This document shows, in pieces, positions 11,783 to 16,955 of a DNA stretch of 64,000 bases; positions within the stretch are counted from its first letter, which is position 1, and each line of letters opens with the position of its first letter. A program made the position numbers and the translations under genes. This DNA is from Cycloclasticus sp. Its GTDB lineage: Bacteria > Pseudomonadota > Gammaproteobacteria > Methylococcales > Cycloclasticaceae. The DNA lies in assembly GCA_040743155.1 (NCBI GenBank), contig JBFLJU010000001.1:558001-622000 (forward strand), written 5' to 3'. Under the pieces are notes generated by a model that saw only the letters and a list, made by a program, of their open reading frames with translations, did no database searches and was not told the origin of the DNA.

Positions 11783-12055
11783 GCGTTTAACTGCTTCATT
11801 ATTAAAATCAAACTGGCTGACCCCTTGATTTCGCTAATGTTGTAAGAAGCAGAATTTCTGAGTGGGCTGATATCGCTTTTGAAAACGAGACTTAAATAAG
11901 TAGAGCAGAGGGGCAATGTTCTGATGAAAAATTAGCTCTCGGCTTAAGACAGTTAAGCAAAGAGCCGCATTAGGCTTATTATCACCGCAAAATGCAACGC
12001 CTCACTGGATTGAAATTGTTAAGCGACTCACCGAAAGGGTCGTTTTGGCCCGGTG
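11783..12055. other. Intergenic stretch without a recognisable gene
   Basis: Together with the Pho-box promoter this forms a gap of about 330 bp between the GST gene and ppk. It contains one REP-like repeat. On the plus strand one open frame (from about 11928 to about 12110) reads protein-like, but it has no start codon with a ribosome binding site and I recognise no family. It may be debris of a lost gene. Confidence 0.4.
11804..11832 (+). repeat. Dispersed REP-like repeat, copy 1
   Basis: The core ATCAAACTGGCTGACCCC is followed by TTGATTT. The outer arms AAATCAA (11805-11811) and TTGATTT (11825-11831) are perfect inverted repeats around the core. Two more copies lie at about 16926 and 18032 (the latter inverted). 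The core resembles the short repeats that flank REP-associated tyrosine transposases in many gammaproteobacteria; that link is an inference. Confidence 0.6.
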
Positions 12056-12089
12056 TTGTCATTTAAATGTCATATCTCATGGTTATGCT
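12056..12089 (+). promoter_or_regulatory. Pho box and -10 element upstream of ppk
   Basis: TTGTCATTTAAATGTCAT at 12056-12073 has the two 7-bp direct repeats of a PhoB site (consensus CTGTCAT, 4 AT-rich bases, CTGTCAY) with the exact 11-bp periodicity; both TGTCAT cores are perfect. A -10-like TATGCT at 12084-12089 begins 10 bases after the box, where a PhoB-activated promoter should have it. The predicted transcript would start near 12096, about 20 bases before the ppk GTG. Phosphate-starvation control of ppk is known in other bacteria. Confidence 0.65.
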
Positions 12090-12114
12090 GTGTTGTTGAA
12101 AATGAAAGTATAGA

Positions 12115-14193
12115 GTGGTGTGTGTGACAAAAAATGATGGGCACAAGTATGTTGAAAAGGAACTTAGCTGGTTATCGTTTAACGAGCGGGTTTTACAAGA
12201 GGCGACAGATAAGTCTGTTCCTATTGTAGAGCGGGTACGATTTTTAGGAATATTCTCCAATAACCTTGATGAGTTTTTTCGTGTTCGAGTAGCGAATGTT
12301 AAGCGTAAAGTCCTTATTGAAAAAAGCTTGGAAGATGAAACGCCGACAAAAAACCTTTTGCGCGCCATTCAGAAAAAAGTATTAAAGCTTCAGGAAGATT
12401 TTGAAGTTATTTATTTTGATGTTTTAAAAGGGCTGGCACACCAACATATCTTTTTAATTAATGAAGATCAGCTGAGCGAAGAGCAAGGGCTCTGGCTCCG
12501 TGAATATTTTTATAATAAATTAAAGCGCTATATTGAGCCTATTATCATCAATAAAGATACCGATTTAGCATCATTATTAAAAGATGATTCAACCTATTTG
12601 ATTTGTGAAATGATTAATGGGGATGATATTCAATATGCAGCTGTTGCCATCCCAACGAATGATTCGCCACGTTTTATTGAATTGCCACGCGAGAAAGGTA
12701 AGAGACGGAAAAATATTATCATGTCAGATAATGTGATTCGCTATTGTTTTGACGATATATTTGCACCGTATTTTGACTATAAACAGCACAATGTTTATTC
12801 AATGAAAATGACCTGTGATGCGGATTTTGGCTTAACCGATGATATTGACCAGTCGTTGCTAGAAAGAATGTCGACAGGGCTTAAACAGCGCCTTAATTCT
12901 CAGCCTGTTCGCTTTGTTTATGAGCGTGGTATGTCATCGGCTGGGATTGATATGTTGAAAAATAAACTGGGTATTTCTAGGAATGACAGTGTTATAGCGG
13001 GTGGTCGTTACCATAACTTTAGGGACTTTATAGGGTTTCCAAATATAGGGCGAAAGCATTTAGAAAACCCTAAAATGCCGGCTTTAGTATCGCAAGATTT
13101 TGCTAAGTACCCCAGTGTTTTTCAAGCGATTAAAAAGAAAGATATTCTGCTGAGCTACCCTTACCATAAGTTTAGCCACTTTACTGAAATGCTGCGTGAG
13201 GCGGCTTTTGATCCGGCTGTTTTTGAAATAAAAATAAGCGTGTACCGAGTGGCAAGCAATAGCCGTATTATTAAATCACTCATTAATGCGGTAAGAAACG
13301 GTAAAAAAGTACTGGCAGTTATAGAGCTACATGCACGATTTGATGAGCAGGCAAATATAGAGTGGGCAAAGGTGTTAACCGAAGGGGGGGTAAAGGTTGA
13401 GTTCGGAGTGCCTTCTTTAAAATGCCATAGCAAACTATGTTTAATTGGGCGGCACGAAAAGGACAAAGCGGTGTACTACGCCCATATAGGCACGGGTAAT
13501 TTCCACGAAAAAACAGCAAAAATATATACTGACTATAGTTTGTTCACTCGTAATGAAGATATTACAAAAGAAGTGATCGATGTTTTTGACTTTATTGTTA
13601 ACAGTTATAAGCAAAAAGAATTTAAGCACTTAATTGTTTCGCCTGTTAATACCAGAGACTGGATTAATCAGTCGATTGATAATGAAATTAAAATGGCAAA
13701 AAAAGGTCATAAGGCCGAAATTTTATTAAAAGTGAATAATCTTGATGATAAAAGTATTATTCGTAAGCTCTATGAGGCGAGCTGTGCGGGTGTGAAAATT
13801 CGTATGATTATCAGAGGGATGTGCGTATTAGTGCCAGGTGTAGATGGCCTGAGTGAAAATATTGAGGTTATATCAATTGTTGATCGTTTCTTGGAGCATA
13901 CTCGGGTGAGTGTTTTCCATAATGGTGGTAAACCGAAGGTTGTGATTAGTTCAGCCGATTGGATGACACGGAATATTGATCGCCGAATAGAAGTCGGTTG
14001 CCCTATTTACGATGAGGGTATTCAGCAACGACTGATTTATATATTTAACGTGCAATGGAGCGATAAAACAAAAGCTAGAATTATTGATAAGAAGCAGGTT
14101 AATGAGTATAGGCCACGTGGCAATAAACGAAAAATACGTTCACAAGTAGCGATATATGATTACCTGAAAGCGATTGAAAGTAAAAAAACATGA
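12115..14193 (+). CDS. ppk1: Polyphosphate kinase 1
   Basis: A 692-residue enzyme that reversibly polymerises the gamma-phosphate of ATP into inorganic polyphosphate. Family landmarks are clear: the N-terminal ELSWLSFNERVLQEA, then NLDEFFRVRV, and the two active-site histidines His438 (SLKCHSKLCL) and His457 (YAHIGTGNF); the first corresponds to the autophosphorylated His of E. coli PPK1. The length is normal. The start is GTG; further GTG codons at 12118 and 12124 are possible, and the predicted transcript start leaves little room further upstream. The stop overlaps the ppx start by 4 bases (ATGA), so the two are translationally coupled. A Pho box lies immediately upstream. Confidence 0.96.
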   Translation: MVCVTKNDGHKYVEKELSWLSFNERVLQEATDKSVPIVERVRFLGIFSNNLDEFFRVRVANVKRKVLIEKSLEDETPTKNLLRAIQKKVLKLQEDFEVIYFDVLKGLAHQHIFLINEDQLSEEQGLWLREYFYNKLKRYIEPIIINKDTDLASLLKDDSTYLICEMINGDDIQYAAVAIPTNDSPRFIELPREKGKRRKNIIMSDNVIRYCFDDIFAPYFDYKQHNVYSMKMTCDADFGLTDDIDQSLLERMSTGLKQRLNSQPVRFVYERGMSSAGIDMLKNKLGISRNDSVIAGGRYHNFRDFIGFPNIGRKHLENPKMPALVSQDFAKYPSVFQAIKKKDILLSYPYHKFSHFTEMLREAAFDPAVFEIKISVYRVASNSRIIKSLINAVRNGKKVLAVIELHARFDEQANIEWAKVLTEGGVKVEFGVPSLKCHSKLCLIGRHEKDKAVYYAHIGTGNFHEKTAKIYTDYSLFTRNEDITKEVIDVFDFIVNSYKQKEFKHLIVSPVNTRDWINQSIDNEIKMAKKGHKAEILLKVNNLDDKSIIRKLYEASCAGVKIRMIIRGMCVLVPGVDGLSENIEVISIVDRFLEHTRVSVFHNGGKPKVVISSADWMTRNIDRRIEVGCPIYDEGIQQRLIYIFNVQWSDKTKARIIDKKQVNEYRPRGNKRKIRSQVAIYDYLKAIESKKT

Positions 14194-15704
14194 TAGATAA
14201 AATGATTAAGAAAAGTGATAGCTCAGAGTTGCTAGCGGCATTAGACCTTGGTTCTAATAGCTTTCATTTGATTATTGCCCGTATGCAAAATGGCATTATT
14301 GAACCTATTAAACGGGTTAAGCACCGCGTTAAGTTAAGAGCGGGGCTAAATAAAGAAAATGACTTAAATTACGAATCAATTCTACGTGCTGTTTCTAGCT
14401 TGAAAGAAATAGGCGATATATTAAAAGAAAGTGGAGCCGGAAAAGTGAGGGTGGTAGCAACACATACCATTCGTGAGGCAAATAATCGTAATGCATTTTT
14501 AACATTAGCTGAGCAAGCGTTAGGCTTCCCAATAGAGATTATTTCTGGCTGTGAAGAAGCGCGCCTTATATATCAAGGTGTGGTACGTAGTGAGGCGTTA
14601 CTCGACAATAGTTTAGTGATTGATATTGGTGGCGGTAGTACAGAGATAGTGGTGGGTGAGGGCTGTGAGACCCTCTATAGAGAAAGCAAAAGTATGGGCT
14701 GTATCAGTTTTACTGAACGTTATTTCTCGAAAGAGTTGAACAAAAAAGCTTTTAAAAAAGCGGAGATAGCGACCTTACAGAAACTAGAGTTTTGTTCACA
14801 TCGCTTTAAAAAATTTAAATGGAACAATGTATTTGCAACGTCAGGCACCGCTAAAGCACTTTTTAAAGCGGTTGGTTTAGTGGGCGACAATACCGATAGC
14901 TTATTGTTGAGCGACCTTTTGGAGTTAAAGAACTTGTTATGCCAGAAGTCTTGTTTTGAAAAGCTTTCGTGGGTCGGTATTGATGAAGCGCGAGCCGGCG
15001 TATTACCCGCGGGTGTGGCGATTATGATCGCGGTAATGAAAAGCTTAGGTATTACAGAGCTAAAGTCCTGCAGCGCTGCTTTGCGTGAAGGTGTTCTTTA
15101 TGAAATGGAGCAGCAAGATAAAGAGCAAAGTACACGACTATTAACCCGTCAAGATATGCAAACGCGCTACCATGTGGATCGACGACAGGCACAACAAGTA
15201 GCGGAAACGTGTGAGCTGCTATGGAATCAAGTGGCTGAAGAGTGGAGCTTAGAAACGACAGGTTTAAAAGAGTTGTTAAAAGAAGCGGCTTATTTATATG
15301 AAGTGGGTTTGCAAATTAGTGTCAGTGATTTTCAAAATCACTCGGGCTATATTTTGGCAAATAGTGAATTGCCTGGCTATAACCAAAATGAGCAGCAACT
15401 ATTAGGGCTGTTGGTGAGTAATGGGAGAAAAAAATTCAAACGAAGAAGCTTGCCATTACTGCGTAATGTTAGTCATAAAGTGTTAACACGTTTAATTCGT
15501 CTATTCCGTTTAGCGGTATTGCTAAATAATAGCCGTCAGCCATTAGTGGTTGATTTGCTCAGCTTGAAGACAGATGGCGGTGATATGCAATTGACGATTG
15601 ATAAGGCATTTTTTCTTGAGCAAGATTTAAATGTTGCCGATTTAGATAAGGAAGCGAAATTGATGGCTAAACTGGGTAATAAACTATCTTACCAATTGGT
15701 TTAA
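14190..15704 (+). CDS. ppx: Exopolyphosphatase, Ppx/GppA family
   Basis: A 504-residue ASKHA-fold phosphatase: phosphate-1 motif ALDLGSNSFHLII near residue 17, THTIREANN near 93, and phosphate-2 motif DIGGGSTEI starting at Asp145, followed by an HD-like helical C-terminal region. It releases terminal phosphate from polyphosphate chains, and family members may also act on pppGpp. The length matches long Ppx enzymes such as that of E. coli rather than short ones. The overlapping ATGA start with ppk indicates an operon in which synthesis and breakdown enzymes are coupled. No terminator is visible directly after the stop. Confidence 0.95.
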   Translation: MIDKMIKKSDSSELLAALDLGSNSFHLIIARMQNGIIEPIKRVKHRVKLRAGLNKENDLNYESILRAVSSLKEIGDILKESGAGKVRVVATHTIREANNRNAFLTLAEQALGFPIEIISGCEEARLIYQGVVRSEALLDNSLVIDIGGGSTEIVVGEGCETLYRESKSMGCISFTERYFSKELNKKAFKKAEIATLQKLEFCSHRFKKFKWNNVFATSGTAKALFKAVGLVGDNTDSLLLSDLLELKNLLCQKSCFEKLSWVGIDEARAGVLPAGVAIMIAVMKSLGITELKSCSAALREGVLYEMEQQDKEQSTRLLTRQDMQTRYHVDRRQAQQVAETCELLWNQVAEEWSLETTGLKELLKEAAYLYEVGLQISVSDFQNHSGYILANSELPGYNQNEQQLLGLLVSNGRKKFKRRSLPLLRNVSHKVLTRLIRLFRLAVLLNNSRQPLVVDLLSLKTDGGDMQLTIDKAFFLEQDLNVADLDKEAKLMAKLGNKLSYQLV

Positions 15705-15728
15705 CAGGCCCGCTTAACTCTAGACATA

Positions 15729-15926
15729 TTATTTAGGTGTGCTGTTATATTTTAGCAGGGCATCTTCAATTAATCCCTCAATCAGATTTTGTAAGCTAGT
15801 GTCTTTTTCAATAGCCATTATTTTTAGGGATTTTAGTGTCTTTTTTTCTAAACGAAGGGATGTGCTTTTCTTTGCCTTGCTAGGGCTGTTGTTTTCTTTT
15901 TTAGAGTCTTCTTTTTGATTTTTCAT
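15729..15926 (-). CDS. Small ribbon-helix-helix-like basic protein
   Basis: A 65-residue protein. The first 25 residues are lysine-rich and probably disordered. From about residue 24 the pattern STSLRLEKKTLKSLKIMAIE then SLQNLIEGLIEDALLKY is the strand-helix-helix pattern of ribbon-helix-helix (CopG/Arc-like) DNA-binding proteins. It could be a local repressor; many such proteins bind short palindromes near their own gene. A GTG two codons upstream is an alternative start; no strong ribosome binding site is present for either. It converges with ppx (24-base gap) and lies downstream of the 25-residue basic peptide on the same strand. Confidence 0.65.
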   Translation of the reverse strand: MKNQKEDSKKENNSPSKAKKSTSLRLEKKTLKSLKIMAIEKDTSLQNLIEGLIEDALLKYNSTPK

Positions 15927-15987
15927 TGGCACATGACTAGCAAATATAAAAGTATTTCATAATATTAGAAATATTGAGCGAAGAAGT

Positions 15988-16024
15988 AAAGCCTCGCCGC
16001 CAGTTTAGCTGGCGATGAGGCTTT
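15988..16024 (-). terminator. Strong hairpin, probable intrinsic terminator
   Basis: Arms AAAGCCTCGCCGCCAG (15988-16003) and CTGGCGATGAGGCTTT (16009-16024) pair over 16 positions with a 2-base mismatch around a 5-base loop. On the minus strand it lies 11 bases after the stop of the 25-residue peptide and ends in TTT followed by ACTTCTTC, a moderate U-tract. It would isolate that small gene as its own transcription unit ahead of the ribbon-helix-helix gene. Confidence 0.65.
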
Positions 16025-16035
16025 AATAAAAAAAA

Positions 16036-16113
16036 CTAGATCTTCTTTTTTAGTTTCTTAATTTTTTTAGTTAATTTTTTGATTTTTAGTTTGATCTCTT
16101 TTTTCTTAGCCAT
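16036..16113 (-). CDS. 25-residue lysine-rich amphipathic heptad peptide
   Basis: A short ORF of 25 codons plus stop. AAGGA seven bases before the ATG is a good ribosome binding site, and a strong hairpin follows the stop, so it looks like a real small gene. The peptide begins MAKKKEIK and has 14 lysines and one glutamate. Hydrophobic residues fall at positions 7, 11, 14, 18, 21 and 25 (Ile, Ile, Leu, Ile, Leu, Ile), a perfect 4-3-4-3-4 heptad spacing, giving a basic amphipathic helix able to form a coiled coil. A role in binding polyphosphate, nucleic acid or membrane is suggested by charge and by the neighbouring ppk-ppx, but this is inference. I recognise no family. Confidence 0.55.
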   Translation of the reverse strand: MAKKKEIKLKIKKLTKKIKKLKKKI

Positions 16114-16157
16114 GTTTAGTTCCTTATGATTTATGTAATAATGATGTTAATACGTTG

Positions 16158-16187
16158 TTACGTAATGACGTCATTAGTTGCTATACT
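16158..16187 (+). promoter_or_regulatory. Promoter-like elements spanning a 14-bp perfect palindrome
   Basis: TAATGACGTCATTA at 16163-16176 is a perfect palindrome in the 206-bp region between the divergent basic-peptide and HhH/lysine-tail genes. On the plus strand it lies between TTACGT (16158-16163, weak -35) and TATACT (16182-16187, good -10) with an 18-base spacer, an ideal operator position. A repressor such as the nearby ribbon-helix-helix protein is a candidate; this is inference. Confidence 0.45.
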
Positions 16188-16319
16188 ACGGATCTTATTA
16201 TTTGTTTTCAAGTTAATTGTTTTTTTACATTATTTAGTGAATGGTACGAGATTAAAAATGTACTTATTTAAAATGATTGATTTGTATTGAATTTATTTAT
16301 GTAGCTTAAGGGGTAATGA

Positions 16320-16763
16320 ATGGAACAATTAGTTATTGAAATAGCGGGAATTGGTCAGGCAACATCGGTTGTATTGACTAAGCATGGTTTTAAAACAGTG
16401 GCTGATGTAGCAAACGCCAACGTTGAAAGTTTATCAGTGGTGCCAGGTTTTGCTAATGCTCGGTCGCTTCAGACGATAAAGAAGGCAAAGGCGCTGCTTC
16501 AAATAGTGGGTGTGTCAGCTTCTAAAGAAGTGAGTGACTCGGTTGCCAGTAAGGAAGAGGTGGCTCCTAAAAAACCGATAAAGAATAAAAAAACAGTAAA
16601 GAAAAGTAGCGGCAAAGATAAAAAATTTATTAAAAAGAAAGGTAAGAAAGAGGCCAAAAACAAAGATAAAAAAGCAGCTAAAGATAAAGCAAAGAAGACT
16701 AAAAAATCCAGTAATAAAGCGGCTATAAAAAAGAAAAGTAGTAAAAAAAGCAAGAAGAAATAG
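16320..16763 (+). CDS. Helix-hairpin-helix protein with histone H1-like lysine-rich tail
   Basis: A 147-residue protein in two parts. Residues 1-62 form a helix-hairpin-helix-type domain (IAGIGQATSVVLTKHGF, then LSVVPGFANARS) like those in NusA C-terminal repeats or the RNA polymerase alpha C-terminal domain, which contact DNA or RNA non-specifically. After a short acidic linker, residues 80-147 are about half lysine with Ala and Ser, like the tails of AlgP- or PhaF-type bacterial histone H1-like proteins. It is likely nucleoid- or polyanion-binding. AAGGGG six bases upstream supports the ATG. Position downstream of ppk-ppx suggests, but does not prove, a link to polyphosphate granules, as reported for AlgP in Pseudomonas. 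Confidence 0.75.
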   Translation: MEQLVIEIAGIGQATSVVLTKHGFKTVADVANANVESLSVVPGFANARSLQTIKKAKALLQIVGVSASKEVSDSVASKEEVAPKKPIKNKKTVKKSSGKDKKFIKKKGKKEAKNKDKKAAKDKAKKTKKSSNKAAIKKKSSKKSKKK

Positions 16764-16792: not shown

Positions 16793-16925
16793 TTAGCGTG
16801 CAAGCTTATAAGGTGAGAGGTCTATATTACTTGGTCTATCTAGCAGAATATCAACCATCACTTGAGGGCTTGCTGGGGCGACGACAATGCCATTTCTACT
16901 AAAATGCCCGGTAAAAACAAAGGTG
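16793..16925 (-). pseudogene. C-terminal remnant of a glycine oxidase/ThiO-type FAD amino-acid oxidase
   Basis: On the minus strand an open frame of about 44 codons reads FVFTGHFSRNGIVVAPAS and later DRPSNIDLSPYKLAR before a TAA at 16793-16795. GHxxRNGIxxAP followed by DLSPY is the characteristic C-terminal end of ThiO/DadA-type flavin oxidases. Everything upstream (about 300 residues, including the FAD-binding fold) is missing. The homology ends directly at a REP-like repeat (16926), so the gene was truncated there. Non-functional. Confidence 0.65.
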
Positions 16926-16955
16926 AAAATCAAGCTGGCTGACCCCTTGATATTT
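16926..16955 (+). repeat. Dispersed REP-like repeat, copy 2
   Basis: AAAATCAAGCTGGCTGACCC followed by CTTGATATTT. It differs from copy 1 by one base within the shared 25-base core. It sits exactly between the truncated thiO-like remnant and the 3' end of the bile-acid symporter family gene. Confidence 0.6.

Follow-up and report, generated by a model that had tools for sequence, protein, structure and literature searches.

HhH-K is a family of small basic proteins that combine an N-terminal helix-hairpin-helix (HhH) domain of ~60 residues with a disordered tail of 30-50% lysine. In several lineages its gene lies beside ppk, and in methanotrophs a tail-less version of the domain is fused to polyphosphate kinase 1 (PPK1). 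We propose that HhH-K probably acts as a two-ended tether, by which PPK1 or polyphosphate granules would be held to the nucleoid. The family was recognized in a 64,000-nucleotide stretch of a complete, 2.56 Mb Cycloclasticus sp. genome (this stretch is hereafter called the window), at a locus where the original prediction had seen a dedicated kit of three small lysine-rich proteins for organizing polyphosphate granules and the nucleoid under phosphate stress. The features of the locus, in window coordinates, are as follows.

12056..12073, plus strand: Pho box upstream of ppk, TTGTCATTTAAATGTCAT, 15 of 18 positions matching the consensus CTGTCATAWAWCTGTCAY
12124..14193 (open frame from 12115), plus strand: ppk, polyphosphate kinase 1; Pfam PP_kinase_N, middle, C1 and C2; NCBIfam RNA degradosome polyphosphate kinase
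14190..15704, plus strand: ppx, exopolyphosphatase; Pfam Ppx-GppA and domain III, well above cut-off; ATGA overlap with ppk
15729..15926, minus strand: ribbon-helix-helix (RHH)-like small protein with a basic N-terminal tail; weak RHH matches below cut-off; sole match elsewhere in the sister species G004, at 89% identity
15990..16022, no strand assigned: terminator-like hairpin between the RHH and 25-residue peptide genes; dG -22.8 kcal/mol, z -5.2
16036..16113, minus strand: gene of a 25-residue lysine-rich amphipathic peptide, MAKKKEIKLKIKKLTKKIKKLKKKI; compared with the G004 copy
16114..16200, minus strand: near-invariant promoter/5' region of the peptide gene; about 80 nt nearly unchanged in the G004 alignment
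16320..16517, plus strand: HhH domain of HhH-K (residues 1-66); HHH_5 38.6 bits against a cut-off of 27 bits
16518..16763, plus strand: lysine-rich disordered tail of HhH-K (residues 67-147); 44% lysine, net charge +28, pLDDT about 50

The window ppk product carries all four PP_kinase domains (N, middle, C1 and C2) above the curated Pfam cut-offs, and comparison with the sister species Cycloclasticus NAT157 (G004) makes the GTG at 12124 a likelier start than 12115. The domains of both enzymes were matched, and the genes overlap by 4 nt (ATGA), in line with the predicted translational coupling of ppk and ppx. The predicted Pho box was confirmed: it is the top-scoring site of the 64 kb window, and its position upstream of ppk is about the same in 6 of 6 Cycloclasticus genomes checked, with 13-15 of 18 matches in diverged flanking sequence. 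No Pho box was found at the small genes of the window locus, including the HhH-K promoter. With the Pho box seen at ppk-ppx only, a kit for phosphate stress is unproven. Pho regulation of HhH-K itself was considered and rejected, as neither its promoter in the window nor the further HhH-K loci examined showed a convincing Pho box. In G004, ppx is interrupted by a transposase gene that is IS30-like by eye (L050, 11349-12371).

The block from ppk to HhH-K is bracketed by two copies of a repeat, AAAATCAARCTGGCTGACCCCTTGAT, at 11804-11829 and 16926-16951. Its core is present in eight copies in the genome. Elsewhere, two inverted copies lie on either side of a Y1-type transposase-like gene (L247), so that, judged from the sequence, the repeat resembles a REP element accompanied by its RAYT. 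At window positions 11826-11891, a gene that G004 also has (PhoH-like by eye) is cut at the repeat, leaving only its last ~20 codons. Likewise, ~40 codons of an FAD oxidoreductase gene at 16793-16933 are cut at the repeat, and this gene is whole beside ppx in G008.

The HhH-K gene (16320-16763) is transcribed divergently from the peptide gene, and its product has 147 residues and a single HhH domain. Both an HHH_5 match over the cut-off and a tail of 44% lysine bear out the HhH protein with a lysine tail that had been proposed here. The head is modeled by AlphaFold with pLDDT >90 for 58 residues, and the fold of this predicted model is closest to the N-terminal domains of RadA/RAD51 (VIA Z 9-11) and to NusA AR2. 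NusA AR2 is also among the nearest sequence relatives of the domain, NusA being the closest PDB sequence family. Since AR2 binds protein, DNA binding by the HhH domain is uncertain. Membership in NusA was rejected: HhH-K has no N-terminal, S1 or KH domains of the NusA kind, although AR2 is a close fold relative of its single HhH domain. Most family members in our alignments keep a GIG-type and a PGF hairpin, as HhH domains that grip phosphate backbones are expected to do. We therefore defined HhH-K by an N-terminal HHH_5-like domain, GIG and PGF hairpins, a lysine tail and a length of 110-250 residues; the window protein has all of these features (alignments A2 and A4).

The fusion of HhH to PPK1 is the strongest clue to the role of HhH-K. 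A protein search of 61 relatives found the HhH domain as a gene of its own in G004, G021 and G018, and within frames of ~800 residues in family f4. When these loci were fetched, the long frames proved to be PPK1 with an N-terminal HhH domain. In G021 and G018, which represent two methanotroph families, the HhH-K gene ends 8 bp and 7 bp, respectively, before a ppk on the same strand. A profile search (E<=1e-8) extended this to 251 Methylococcales genomes, and a contig scan with an eight-sequence alignment reached mainly Methylococcales. In the 251 genomes, all matches apart from those of NusA size are either fused to PPK1 or adjoin ppk. Four are standalone genes (G000, G004, G018 and G021), every one beside ppk, and more than 30 are fusions. 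For every fusion locus that was retrieved, tblastn confirmed PPK1, and the remaining fusion matches have ORF lengths of PPK1 size, except for one short frame.

The HhH domain is fused to the PPK1 N-terminus in all Methylococcaceae in which it was found, including Methylococcus capsulatus. These proteins hold all PPK1 domains and differ from ordinary PPK1 in an added N-terminal HHH_5 domain and linker. In the M. capsulatus Texas protein, Pfam finds the PP_kinase domains together with HHH_5 at 47.5 bits, over the cut-off, and HHH_5 is also above cut-off in a second f4 methanotroph PPK1. None of the fusions carries a lysine tail, as if the tail of the standalone protein serves to reach PPK1 or its product. 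In a structural model of a fusion, the HhH helices can be seen with a linker of low confidence, but the mean pLDDT of 60 is too poor for judging whether HhH docks on PPK1. One member of the Methylococcaceae (G020) possesses two PPK1 genes (C1:30333 and C1:1215926), one with HhH and the other apparently without. In Cycloclasticus, HhH-K is present in only 2 of 18 genomes, though others possess ppk-ppx.

The family occurs across Gammaproteobacteria and extends into at least one further class. In a class-wide search of 369 genomes, HhH matches of ~500 residues were set aside as NusA because of their length and because NusA is the closest PDB sequence family. About ten further families showed the HhH-K architecture, and f205, a family outside the class, was added by a search across the phylum. 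HhH-K genes lie beside ppk or ppx in families f1, f2, f5 and f182, the last being the family with ppx-ppk neighbors, and HhH-K, ppx and ppk stand side by side in G381. Linkage to PPK2 marks family f142, and in G401 the HhH-K gene adjoins PPK2. In f160 the order is CYTH-CHAD, a ParA/MinD-type ATPase, HhH-K and, where the contig reaches, pstS and phoU. In one f205 genome (G712), the gene after HhH-K encodes a ParA with 44% identity to the CHAD-linked ParA. A ParA/MinD-type ATPase gene directly after a CHAD gene was observed in f160 (L104, L105 and L106), f5, f182, f50 (twice), f119 and f2 (further CHAD-ParA loci: L250, L251, L252, L253, L254 and L255), a pairing that might possibly serve ATP-driven positioning of polyphosphate granules.

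Under a simple model with the window family excluded, the chance of a polyphosphate or phosphate gene within 4 kb (<=4 kb) of HhH-K in 5 of 14 families is about 3e-6. The neighborhood counts behind such estimates are not fully independent, because f1, f2, f4 and f5 belong to one order. At the level of gene content, a PPK1 match was found in 15 of the 17 class genomes with HhH-K (all but G270 and G323), compared with 203 of the 352 others (one-sided Fisher's exact test, P = 0.009). The main weakness of the linkage claim is the families without it: about half of the standalone HhH-K families (f95, f161, f119, f50, f82, f127 and most of f205) have no polyphosphate neighbor.

The other two small proteins of the window locus have a different distribution. 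Their genes run on the minus strand and converge with ppx. Between the two lies a conserved hairpin, the stem of which is retained in G004 despite changes on both sides. All three small ORFs predicted directly downstream of ppk-ppx exist, but they are not co-directional, and, being on different strands, they do not form one operon. The gene at 15729-15926 was rejected as an RHH antitoxin, for its RHH matches are all below cut-off and its neighbors are ppx and the peptide gene rather than a toxin. The 25-residue product is, as had been stated, a basic heptad peptide, with I/L at perfect 3-4 spacing and a net charge of +13. Its frame is probably a real coding gene, because, of the five substitutions in the G004 copy, two are conservative and three are silent, one of the latter lying in the stop codon; the RBS is kept as well, and the ~80 nt upstream are nearly invariant. 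Within this upstream region (16130-16190), the near-palindromes TTACGTAA and TGACGTCA are unchanged in the sister species and may form an operator, to which the RHH protein would perhaps bind. Charge alone might let the peptide condense polyphosphate; its position is its sole tie to polyphosphate. No other small lysine-rich ORF near the HhH-K loci passed a filter of 18-60 residues and at least 33% lysine.

Among 61 genomes, the RHH-like protein and the peptide each occur in the window genome and G004 only, at the same place in both. Sought in 60 relatives, the pair was thus found in a single sister species, and it was not seen at other HhH-K loci. Conserved linkage to ppk, which the original prediction had named as its test, was found for HhH-K and not for its two companions, which do not travel with it. 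With the pair missing from 59 of the 61 related genomes, the three-protein kit is unsupported. In its favor, the trio stays together as a block adjoining ppk-ppx in both Cycloclasticus genomes that have it (2 of 18), and the conservation of the RHH protein (89%) and the peptide (92%) between them is close to that of PPK1 (91%). Against it, the strands and promoters of the three genes differ, and the Pho box is confined to ppk-ppx. We consider it very unlikely that the three proteins jointly serve granules and nucleoid under phosphate stress, and the RHH protein and the peptide are probably local neighbors that were acquired recently.

For HhH-K, we infer a division of labor between its two parts. 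The HhH domain would grip DNA without sequence preference, and electrostatic attraction would bind the lysine tail to polyphosphate or to the nascent chain on PPK1. This might keep PPK1 and its granules on the nucleoid, spaced apart. In the Methylococcaceae, where HhH is part of PPK1, the enzyme would bring an anchor with it and would not need a lysine tail. Counting against the tether are the tail-less state of the fused form, the small share of Cycloclasticus genomes with HhH-K and the HhH-K promoter lacking a Pho box. The main rival has the HhH domain bind PPK1 or the growing chain instead of DNA, so that HhH-K would be a PPK1 subunit or processivity factor whose tail catches the nascent chain. 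Both the fusion and the tight gene pairing suit a stoichiometric partner equally well, and NusA AR2, close in sequence and fold, binds proteins. However, most standalone members keep the two hairpins of phosphate-backbone binders, HhH-K adjoins CHAD-ParA and PPK2 genes with no PPK1 next door, and it accompanies two PPK1 subfamilies that are just 33% identical to each other. On balance a PPK1-binding role is unlikely, and the tether is favored because the fusion lacks the tail and because AlgP and PhaH provide precedents. Less likely still is that HhH-K is a general nucleoid protein resembling histone H1, its proximity to ppk arising from co-regulation or chance. The many members without a polyphosphate neighbor would be explained in this way, and lysine tails can bind DNA, as in histone H1, but a family-wide PPK1 fusion and recurrent linkage to ppk, ppx, CHAD, PPK2 and pst would not be expected.

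Nucleoid-bound granule organizers are a kind already defined by AlgP and PhaH. AlgP of Pseudomonas aeruginosa, a nucleoid-associated protein whose tail is rich in lysine, keeps polyphosphate granules spaced (PMC9239181). HhH-K also has a basic, disordered, lysine-rich C-terminal tail and is polyphosphate-linked. The two differ in that AlgP consists of a 124-residue helical N-terminal domain followed by C-terminal KPAA repeats (PMC9239181), whereas HhH-K has an N-terminal HhH, no KPAA in the translated window protein and a gene tied to ppk. The analogy with AlgP drawn in the original prediction thus holds as a way of working and not as a common fold. PhaH of Caulobacter crescentus shares an HhH domain with HhH-K; according to the account in a 2025 review, this domain binds DNA nonspecifically and the protein spaces PHB granules (Salinas et al. 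2023, doi 10.1111/mmi.15124, via PMC13052382). As described there, PhaH has a granule-binding N-terminal part and a C-terminal HhH (PMC13052382), whereas in HhH-K the HhH comes first, the lysine tail follows and the gene neighbors concern polyphosphate rather than PHB. HhH-K is best read as a protein that would work like AlgP and PhaH while being a member of neither family. CHAD proteins (phosins) bind polyphosphate and are encoded beside ppk (PMC6537752). In Acidithiobacillus a folD-ppk-parA-CHAD cluster has been reported, with no granule-positioning reading attached to it (PMC10892726). The f160 HhH-K gene adjoins CHAD and ParA genes, but HhH-K itself contains no CHAD domain, and the window genome gave neither a CHAD match nor a close relative of the CHAD-linked ParA.

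Neither the HhH-K family and its tie to polyphosphate genes nor the fusion of HhH to PPK1 appears to have been described. No literature joining HhH to polyphosphate, apart from the review that covers PhaH, and no paper with both "polyphosphate kinase" and "helix-hairpin-helix", was found among searchable papers, which miss most subscription journals. The 2025 review lists AlgP as the sole nucleoid tether for polyphosphate granules and leaves for future work whether their positioning costs energy (PMC13052382). More tentatively, one may imagine a proteobacterial granule organizer in which HhH is polyphosphate's anchor to the chromosome, either in a separate lysine-tailed protein or within PPK1, and in which, in some lineages, a ParA-type ATPase linked to CHAD possibly drives active granule movement. 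A parallel for such movement is McdA, which moves carboxysomes.

The gene neighborhoods of HhH-K suggest an undescribed means of holding polyphosphate stores against the chromosome. It could explain granule placement in bacteria without CHAD proteins, such as the Cycloclasticus-like organism of the window. With a probable DNA-gripping domain built into PPK1 throughout a methanotroph family that includes cultured members, the question of how polyphosphate granules are positioned becomes directly testable.
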